Positions 8,090 to 29,370 of a stretch of 64,000 nt of DNA are shown here, in pieces. The stretch lies in assembly GCF_950295315.1 (NCBI RefSeq), contig NC_080181.1:40453375-40517374 (forward strand), written 5' to 3'. The notes below the pieces were generated by a model that was not told the DNA's origin, did no database searches, and saw only the letters and a list, made by a program, of their open reading frames with translations. The stretch is from Erinaceus europaeus. Taxonomy: Eukaryota; Chordata; Mammalia; Eulipotyphla; Erinaceidae. Made by a program: the position numbers and the translations under genes. The stretch's first letter is position 1; the number at the start of each line of letters is the position of its first letter.

Positions 8090-9147
8090 TCTTTTTAAAT
8101 TTTTATTTATAAAAAGGAAACACTGACAAAAAACATAGGATAAGAGGGGTACAACTCCACACAATTCTCACCACCAGAACTCTGTATCCCATCCCATCCC
8201 CTGATAGCTTTCCTATTCTTTATCCCTCTGGGAATATGGACCAAGGACATTGTGGGTTGCAGAAGGTGGAAGGTCTGGCCTCTGTTATTACTTCCCCACT
8301 GAACATGGCCATTGACAGGTCAGTCCATACCCCCAGCCTGTCTCTCTCTTTCCATAGAGAGGCAGGGATATGGGGAAGCAGGGCTCCAGGACACATTGGT
8401 GGGGTTGTCTGCCCAAGGAAGTCAGGTTGGCATCATGGTAGCATCTGAACCTGCTGGCTAAAAGAAGAGTTAGCACATAGAACCTAAAGGCTAGAATATT
8501 GCAGATGAAAATATGGGGGGTCTCTGTTCTGTAGATAGTTAGTTGGGCCTATTTTAGTTATATTCCAAAGAGCCAATGACTATACTAGCTTTTGGTTTTT
8601 GTTTTTTGTTTTTCCTAAGCCTGAGCCTGAAGTCTGATATGGAGGTGGATCCAATTTATTGTCTGGGAAGATGATATCATGGCTGGAAAAAGGACCACAA
8701 AGCTGGATCAGGGAAAAGAGTAGCTCCCAAATATGGGAAAGGTGTATAAATATTGTTGACTGTAAACCCCATTAATTTGATGAGATCTGGGGCCCATATT
8801 CAGCTTAGGAGCCTATGTGACCTCTGCATCCCTGTAGATCTGAGCTCACATTCTGTGGTCATGAGTAGGAATGTTGCAAACTGCCTCAATTTCAGAACCC
8901 ATCTTCCTCAAGTGGAAAATAGAGTGTGTTGTCCATCCTCCCTTCAGAGGATGGAACATTCTCTACCATTGTTGATCCACATTGAGAGCAAGGTCCTATG
9001 GGGGCCCACAGAGGGGTCTATTGTATTGTTCCTGATAGAGATGACTGGTAACAATGGAGAGAAGGATTTATTTGATGTATAGGCCCATCATGTCTGTTTG
9101 GTAATCTCAGGACTCCCTGACTAGGGCTCCCACTGATAGGATGGCCT
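8090..9147 (-). mobile_element. HLR-1, 3' portion of an interrupted copy
   Basis: The sequence is collinear with the copies at 51156-52317 and 58195-59372: A-rich end, 'aggataagaggggtacaa', 'ggaccacaaagctggatcag', 'ggatggaacattctctacc'. It has no long ORF. It continues at 10261 after a 1.1-kb insertion. Confidence 0.93.
9139..9147 (+). repeat. Target-site duplication, left copy
   Basis: The 9-mer 'ggatggcct' recurs at 10261-10269. The uninterrupted HLR-1 copy near 59248 reads 'gatggggtggcctgatag' once at the same place, so the repeat marks the insertion boundary. Confidence 0.9.
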
Positions 9148-10260
9148 TCTTCTTCTAGCGTTTGCCCTTCTTCCGTAGCCAGTCAACAGCGTCAGGTTGA
9201 GCCTGATGTAAAGTTTCGAGACCTCCTTTGAATCTGGAGAGGTGGCAGTCGTTGACTATGTGGATCATAGTCTGTCTGTAGCCGCAGGGGCAGTTCGGGT
9301 CGTCTCTGGCTCCCCAGCGATGGAACATAGCAGCGCACCGGCCATGGCCTGTTCGATAGCGATTGAGGAGGACCCAATCATAACGTGCTAGGTCAAAGCC
9401 GGGTTGACGCTTACAGGGGTCTGTGATGAGGTGTTTGTTCTTTACCTCAGCTGACTGCCAACTCTGTTTCCAAGAGTCTGGAACAGAGAAGTTCAGTGTA
9501 GGCATAGGGGACCAGATTGGGTGATGAGACATCAAGCATTGGACAGGGTGGGTGAAGATATCCGCGTATATTGGCAGGTCCGGTTGAGCGTAGACGTGGG
9601 AAATGAACTTAGATGATGCCACATCCCGACGAATATCTGGCGGGGAGATGTTGCTAAGAACTGGCAGCCATGGAACCGGGGTGGAACGGATGGTTCCAGA
9701 AATTATCCTCATGGAGGAATATAATTTGGAATCGATCAAGTGGACATGGGGGCTACGGAACCATACTGGGGCACAGTATTCTGCAGTGGAATAGCATAAT
9801 GCCAGAGATGATGATCGTAGTGTGGAAGCGCTCACGCCCCATGAGGAGCTGGCCAGTCTTGCAATGATGTTATTCCTCGCGCCCACCTTTGCTGCAGTTT
9901 TTATGAGATGTTCGTGAAATGACAGAGTGCGATCGAGAGTAACGCCAAGATAGACTGGCTGGGCTTCATGCCGGATTTTCATATCGCCAAGCTGTACATT
10001 AAGCTCACGCGAGGCCGAGGCATGGTGTAGAAGGAAAACAGATGATACCGTTTTTGCAGTGCTAGGGATTAGTCGCCATTTTTTACAGTAATCAGATATC
10101 AGAGACATGTCTTTCGTGAGTGTCTCCTTGAGGATGTCGAACTTGGATGCCTGAGTTGCACAGCAGATGTCATCGGCGTAGATGAACTTCCTTGAAGAAG
10201 TTTCTGGGAGGTCATTGATGTAAATATTAAATAGCGTAGGAGCCAGAACAGAGCCCTGGG
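9148..10260 (-). mobile_element. Jockey/CR1/RTE-like non-LTR retrotransposon, 5'-truncated, young
   Basis: An insertion of about 1,113 bp interrupts an HLR-1 copy between 9-bp direct repeats. Read on the minus strand, it is open from its first base to a stop at 9155-9157. It then ends only seven bases later in AAGAAGA, so it has essentially no 3' UTR and an AAG-type tail instead of poly(A). I count about 49 CpG in the insert, against 4 in a same-sized stretch just upstream. Motifs differ from L1 (see the CDS entry). The 3' end recurs at 23105-23150 with one mismatch in 46 bp. 5' truncation plus a target-site duplication is typical of target-primed reverse transcription. The clade is my recollection of jockey-annotated invertebrate elements, and a tree is required to place it. 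Confidence 0.92.
9155..10258 (-). CDS. Partial reverse transcriptase of a Jockey-like LINE (367 codons open)
   Basis: The protein would be the C-terminal part of a LINE polymerase that copies element RNA into DNA at a nicked chromosomal target. Reading from 10258 downward, the frame starts at the RT block QGSVLAPTLFNIYINDLP. It then has KFIYADDICCATQ, the catalytic YADD box, about 30 residues in. Next come the thumb region with YLGVTLDRTLSFHEHL and a conserved STAEYCAPVW block. A C-terminal zinc knuckle CPCGYRQTMIHIVNDC fits CX1CX7HX4C. The frame ends LRKKGKR. The first methionine (10106-10108) is internal and is not the true start, because the natural N-terminus, including any endonuclease, was lost by 5' truncation. 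There is no stop or frameshift in 367 codons, unusual for a mammalian fossil LINE. L1 would show FADD and a CX3C knuckle. Expression is unknown. Confidence 0.9.
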   Translation of the reverse strand, partial: QGSVLAPTLFNIYINDLPETSSRKFIYADDICCATQASKFDILKETLTKDMSLISDYCKKWRLIPSTAKTVSSVFLLHHASASRELNVQLGDMKIRHEAQPVYLGVTLDRTLSFHEHLIKTAAKVGARNNIIARLASSSWGVSASTLRSSSLALCYSTAEYCAPVWFRSPHVHLIDSKLYSSMRIISGTIRSTPVPWLPVLSNISPPDIRRDVASSKFISHVYAQPDLPIYADIFTHPVQCLMSHHPIWSPMPTLNFSVPDSWKQSWQSAEVKNKHLITDPCKRQPGFDLARYDWVLLNRYRTGHGRCAAMFHRWGARDDPNCPCGYRQTMIHIVNDCHLSRFKGGLETLHQAQPDAVDWLRKKGKR

Positions 10261-10269
10261 GGATGGCCT
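10261..10269 (+). repeat. Target-site duplication, right copy
   Basis: The 9-mer 'ggatggcct' matches 9139-9147. HLR-1 sequence resumes directly ('ctgatactgactaaagagtc'). Confidence 0.9.
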
Positions 10270-10835
10270 GATACTGACTAAAGAGTCATCATTAAAGTAT
10301 GCCAGTCTCTTACACTTATTCAGCTTTTATAGTCTTTACTTTGATAAGGTTAGCTTTGGAGTGACAGAGTGAAGTGTAATAGGAAGTAGGTGAGGAGGGT
10401 ATCTAAGTCTAAGTAGACACTATTTCATTATGAATTTTATGGTGTCTTTTTAGATCTTTCTACTTGCTTGCTGCGTATACTGATTCACTGCAGACTACTG
10501 TGCACTTCTGCTTTCAGGTATATATTTTGCCCTAATTTATGGATACATGTGTACATATGCCCTATCTCATGGAACCTGGTCTATCTATATCTAGGTTTGG
10601 GGGCTTTGTTAGGAAATGGACTACCTGAAATGGAATTAGAGAATCCTATGAAAGGAAAGGTCTCACCTGAGTAATGAGGCTAAAGGATTGACACTCCATG
10701 CCTGATGTCTTTGGACACAGTCTGAAGTGAAGCATGCTGAGGTGGTTCTCATTGTGTTGATTCGGTTGGGATCAGCAGATGCAATATCATTTGGTATGAA
10801 TTGAGAGAGACATGCAGGAAAGTGAGCCTCACCAT
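10261..10835 (-). mobile_element. HLR-1, 5' portion of the interrupted copy
   Basis: It continues the copy from 9147. Positions 10261-10400 match 59250-59372. Positions about 10470-10835 match, in reverse, the plus-strand segment 28372-28700. The family is therefore longer than 2 kb. Positions 10836-11120 may belong to it too, but no second copy here confirms that. Confidence 0.85.
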
Positions 10836-23104: not shown

Positions 23105-23150
23105 ACCTGACGCTGTTGACCGGCTACGGAAGAAGGGCAAACGCTAGAAG
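23105..23150 (+). mobile_element. Second copy of the Jockey-like LINE, 3' end only
   Basis: These 46 bases match the reverse complement of 9152-9197 with one difference. They translate as PDAVDRLRKKGKR-stop, against PDAVDWLRKKGKR-stop at 9155. They end with AAG right after the stop codon. It is an extreme 5'-truncated insertion of the same family. I could not identify its target-site duplication. Confidence 0.88.
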
Positions 23151-29230: not shown

Positions 29231-29370
29231 AAAAAAAAAAAGAAGAAGAAGAAGAAGAAGAAGAAGAAGAAGAAGAAGAAGAAGAAGAAGAAGAAGAAGA
29301 AGAAGAAGAAGAAGAAGAAGAAGAAGAAGAAGAAGAAGAAGAAGAAGAAGGAGAAGAAGAAGAAGAAGAA
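29231..29370 (+). repeat. (AAG)n microsatellite
   Basis: About 40 near-perfect AAG units. Poly-Lys and poly-Ser ORFs across it are artefacts. Confidence 0.97.

Follow-up and report, generated by a model that had tools for sequence, protein, structure and literature searches.

The locus

The window, the whole 64-kb stretch of hedgehog DNA analysed here, holds a LINE insertion on its minus strand with the following parts.

9148..10260, minus strand: 5′-truncated Vingi-type LINE insertion, from about position 1960 to the 3′ end of an element of ~3.08 kb (blastn against complete copies)
9155..10258, minus strand: open frame encoding the C-terminal part of the reverse transcriptase (RT) domain and a C-terminal region, ending in TAG (translation; RVT_1 E 7.3e-10)
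9148..9154, minus strand: AAG-type 3′ tail directly after the stop codon (sequence reading; other copies with a fetched 3′ end are alike)
9139..9147, plus strand: target-site duplication GGATGGCCT, 3′ side of the element (exact direct repeat)
10261..10269, plus strand: target-site duplication GGATGGCCT, 5′ side of the element (exact direct repeat)

We found a minus-strand frame of 376 aa, running from stop to stop at 9155-10285, with 367 codons and the TAG lying within the insert; it is the longest frame of the window, the next reaching 257 aa. Its translation carries YADD, STAEYCAPVW and C-P-C-x7-H-x4-C, and the 367 open codons, the two boxes and the CX1CX7HX4C knuckle listed by the first-pass annotation were all recovered. 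At the 3′ end of the insert TAG is followed by AAGAAGA and then by the duplication; this tail and the exact 9-bp repeats had likewise been read correctly. The 5′ junction is uncertain by one or two bases, owing to shared C residues.

Pfam RVT_1 matches residues 4-116 of the frame, covering only positions 115-204 of its 205, so over half of the RT domain is absent from the insert. What had been described as an uninterrupted LINE is a 5′-truncated piece, the last ~36% of the element as placed by blastn to complete copies. A search of solved structures at E up to 0.01 gave no sequence match to the frame.

The 1,113-bp insert contains 49 CpG, as had been counted; the equal lengths to its left and right contain 0 and 8, close to the figure of 4 given earlier for adjacent sequence. 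Among 607 overlapping insert-length windows outside the insert across the 64 kb, the mean is 5.4 and the maximum 18.

Two smaller features were observed elsewhere in the window. A second piece of the same LINE family, the extreme 3′ end, occupies 46 bp at 23105-23150 on the plus strand and is 91-98% identical to four complete copies; inspection by eye found no clear target-site duplication around it. At 29240-29370 there is a near-perfect AAG array of ~44 units, the unit being that of the LINE tail.

The family in the hedgehog genome

Searching the insert frame against its own genome (2.72 Gb in 1,172 contigs) gave 42,987 first-look candidates, and scoring was confined to the top-ranking ones; the 109 scored matches, which are not a copy count, comprise the window copy and 108 others at 93-95% amino acid identity. 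This Vingi-type LINE is therefore present in many copies, of which we fetched 15 longer stretches to read copy anatomy. Four of these (L015, L017, L018 and L025) run from a common 5′ start through to the tail, at ~3.08 kb each. An AAG tail of varying length lies directly 3′ of the stop codon in copies with a fetched 3′ end, the L016 stretch ending earlier.

By Pfam, the front frame of L015 matches Exo_endo_phos (E 3.9e-12) and Exo_endo_phos_2 (E 2.2e-11), as does that of L022, while L012 has one unbroken 886-aa frame with both Exo_endo_phos_2 and RVT_1 (E 4.3e-31). The 885-aa frame of L011 matched RVT_1 only, with no endonuclease match. In the L011 and L012 frames, which are about 886 aa long and reach the stop codon, RNase H families gave no match at E up to 1. 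In none of the fetched copies was an uninterrupted frame seen across the full element, and the single APE-RT protein was accordingly assembled from the overlap of frames and from likeness to relatives; the latter include single proteins of ~1,000 aa that carry APE-type endonuclease and RT domains. Since it has lost the endonuclease along with over half of the RT domain, the window copy is unable to move by itself.

At least two G residues precede the element 5′ end in 13 of 13 loci of one set with complete 5′ ends and in two of the four ~3.08-kb copies; these are perhaps untemplated or cap-derived, or belong to the element start. The host was also examined through a nuclear mitochondrial copy of cytochrome b in this genome, translated with the mitochondrial code. 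Among 120 listed hits in a database clustered at 90%, where E. europaeus need not appear, it is 94% identical to Erinaceus amurensis (the best of them), 91% to an unnamed entry, 85-90% to Mesechinus, Paraechinus and Hemiechinus, 84-85% to Atelerix, and at most 84% to gymnures and other mammals, which marks the host as a spiny hedgehog and most likely an Erinaceus. Cytochrome b-like matches in this genome are concentrated on one contig, C87, with 28 of 35 at about 67.8-72.4 Mb, a cluster suggestive of amplification of a nuclear mitochondrial insert.

Signatures of insertion

The anatomy is consistent with the RNA of a longer element having been copied into the site by target-primed reverse transcription. 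The element's endonuclease would nick the target, cDNA synthesis would start in the AAG tail and halt after about 1.1 kb, and repair would leave the 9-bp duplication, the inserted fragment thereafter drifting neutrally. The truncation, tail and duplication are observed; the nick and the priming we infer from this anatomy and from known LINE biology.

Direct repeats of at least 8 bp flank 11 of 23 copies, compared with 0.9% of mismatched flank pairs. The simple test used here found none in the other 12, one of which (L008) has an incomplete flank and another of which is the window copy; the latter scored 7 bp because its blastn match ran into the repeat, direct reading giving 9 bp.

Rearranged 5′ ends were read at 30 loci, the best 30 of 40 scored from 962 candidates and picked by their 5′ end, and the following counts are not genome-wide rates. 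Nine of the 30 (L051, L062, L063, L064, L069, L070, L073, L076 and L078) have another part of the element joined in inverted orientation, no more than about 12 bases from its position 1. Twin priming is known from L1, and these nine loci show signs that match its pattern; L057, L058 and L066 also have inverted pieces, with a less simple fit, and were left out of this count. At two loci, L061 and L072, the 5′ end is joined to a 3′ part in the same orientation, with different break points, and these two do not show a shared family of internally deleted derivatives. Sixteen of the 30 continue without a break as far as the fetched sequence extends.

Age and neutrality of the window copy

The window copy was compared with 42 others, picked by protein similarity to it and hence biased toward similar, open copies. 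It differs from them by a mean of 2.99% (2.35-3.71%; mean DNA identity 97.0%), close to the pairwise mean of 2.89%, and the idea that it is unusually young was dropped: its divergence is typical of this young family. Relative to the commonest base of the 42 others it carries 19 substitutions, of which 10 are CpG transitions; the other 9 amount to 0.91% of the non-CpG positions, compared with a mean of 0.92% for the others. Mammalian substitution rates are 2-4 per billion years per site, at which the insertion would very roughly date to a few million years ago, with the sample being biased to similar copies.

We considered whether the fragment could be a domesticated or otherwise selected coding sequence whose frame is maintained by purifying selection, as its 367 open codons, the longest frame of the window, might suggest. 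Fifteen of its 19 substitutions change an amino acid and four are silent, which lies inside the range of a neutral simulation (mean 69%, 5-95% range 53-84%), and domestication of this copy was rejected on that test. Moreover, 50% of copies in the simulation, which modelled substitutions only, retain an open frame, and 90 of the 109 scored matches (the window copy included) have no internal stop; the open frame, taken by the first-pass annotation as evidence of recent activity, thus indicates neither that this copy is active at present nor that it is under selection. The one measure leaning the other way comes from the 42 other copies, in which 386 of 735 changes (53%) alter the amino acid, below the neutral mean; such a share is expected where protein similarity guided the choice of copies or where their source elements were under selection, and may reflect selection in the active lineage or only the choice of copies. 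With more than half of the RT domain missing as well, we judge maintenance by selection extremely improbable. A chance open frame or an assembly artefact is virtually out of the question: we found no point in its favour, and it is refuted by the RVT_1 match, by the exact 9-bp duplication and by family copies on many large contigs.

Relatives and origin

Among the matches listed (a second search scored 8,000 candidates), identity to proteins outside the hedgehog family reaches ~58-62% at best, and these come mostly from unnamed metagenome contigs. One closer match, P0001, which sits on a contig of 2 kb and shares 94-97% identity, most likely represents hedgehog sequence. A turtle protein and an eel protein, each 52% identical and aligned to 89% and 78% of the query respectively, are nearer than those of the named arthropods among the matches listed.

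A tree was built from 66 of 213 rows, with SH-aLRT as its only branch support and no bootstrap, a midpoint root for drawing, and no Repbase clade references. The best outside proteins lie at a path of 0.85 or more from the hedgehog family. On one side of a branch with SH-aLRT 100 is a set of 46 rows, made up of the hedgehog family, turtle, eel and 41 unnamed rows; all 10 named arthropod rows used, of 15 available, fall on the other side. The turtle and eel are the only two named vertebrates within the set, and neither pairs with hedgehog inside it.

The first-pass annotation had proposed a new or horizontally acquired LINE of Jockey, CR1 or RTE type, gained recently from an invertebrate parasite. 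Named arthropods (pseudoscorpion, sandfly, aphid and planthopper) do have relatives at 42-49% amino acid identity, no other mammal is named among the 120 listed of 1,201 matches or the 120 listed of 1,079, the hedgehog copies resemble one another, and some of the unnamed metagenome proteins that make up most close relatives may be invertebrate. Against this proposal, no close relative appears among the matches listed, where the best outside proteins are distant both in identity and in tree path; similarity to turtle and eel is greater than to the named arthropods; the ten arthropod rows are split from the set containing hedgehog, turtle and eel; and Vingi was published from hedgehogs in 2011, as later papers cite (PMC5753468, PMC3183009), which also removes the grounds for calling such an element unexpected in this host. 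The tree speaks against the sampled arthropods as donors; the unnamed rows may come from any host, and ticks, fleas and helminths lie outside the search. Overall we consider this proposal very improbable.

The topology is compatible both with vertical descent with loss and with transfer between vertebrates. A combined scenario, in which hedgehog Vingi came horizontally from another vertebrate (for example a fish or reptile lineage) instead of an invertebrate parasite and source copies still move, with this insertion or its neighbours varying between living hedgehogs, seems to us speculative and rather unlikely.

The reading that we hold with high confidence is that the insert is one 5′-truncated copy of hedgehog Vingi-1 (Vingi-1_EE or a very close equivalent), immobile alone, which would have arisen by target-primed reverse transcription and then drifted neutrally.

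Comparison with known elements

In 2011 Kojima, Kapitonov and Jurka (Mol Biol Evol 28:17-20) reportedly named Vingi-1_EE from Erinaceus europaeus and Vingi-1_AAl from Atelerix albiventris. They are said to have described Vingi as a sister of Ingi without RNase H, to have reported internally deleted non-autonomous derivatives, and to have left horizontal versus vertical descent undecided. A compact APE-RT element without detected RNase H in a hedgehog host fits this description, and the likeness to Vingi-1_EE and Vingi-1_AAl extends to host group and to young, similar copies; we found no difference, the comparison being by description rather than by sequence. The family is almost certainly Vingi, the name Vingi-1_EE being drawn from host, anatomy and citing papers. 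The earlier recognition of a fairly recent non-L1 LINE insertion in a hedgehog stands, while its assignment to a Jockey/CR1/RTE-like clade is not supported, anatomy, host and literature fitting Vingi better.

Among LINEs of those other clades, RTE/BovB, CR1/L2 and Jockey elements have an APE-type endonuclease, an RT and target-primed insertion. The hedgehog family shares these properties with them and is assigned to a different clade in the literature. Ingi, a trypanosome LINE and the sister clade of Vingi, carries an RNase H domain, whereas none was detected in the hedgehog family.

Judged by host and anatomy, the family is already known from publication, and a claim of novelty is unsupported. 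Vingi has been reported in hedgehogs and reptiles (PMC5753468), and hedgehog Vingi is named among older likely horizontal transfers in mammals in a paper that also gives 311 copies of the hedgehog Vingi-1N3_EE at <1% divergence (PMC3183009). A 2025 paper on African hedgehog repeats counts 4,476 copies in an I-Jockey class, the word Vingi being absent from its main text (PMC12026660); this class may be the hedgehog Vingi family. The window copy neatly illustrates something unusual but known, that hedgehogs have a young non-L1 LINE. Our additions are small: a rough age and a neutrality estimate for this copy, signs of twin priming in the family, and a tree that, on the old question of how Vingi came into hedgehogs, points toward vertebrate relatives over the arthropods sampled. 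Another mammalian case for comparison is the human X12_LINE, which has been placed in the Vingi clade and is listed among signs of ancient activity (PMC5753468), whereas the hedgehog copies are young and numerous.
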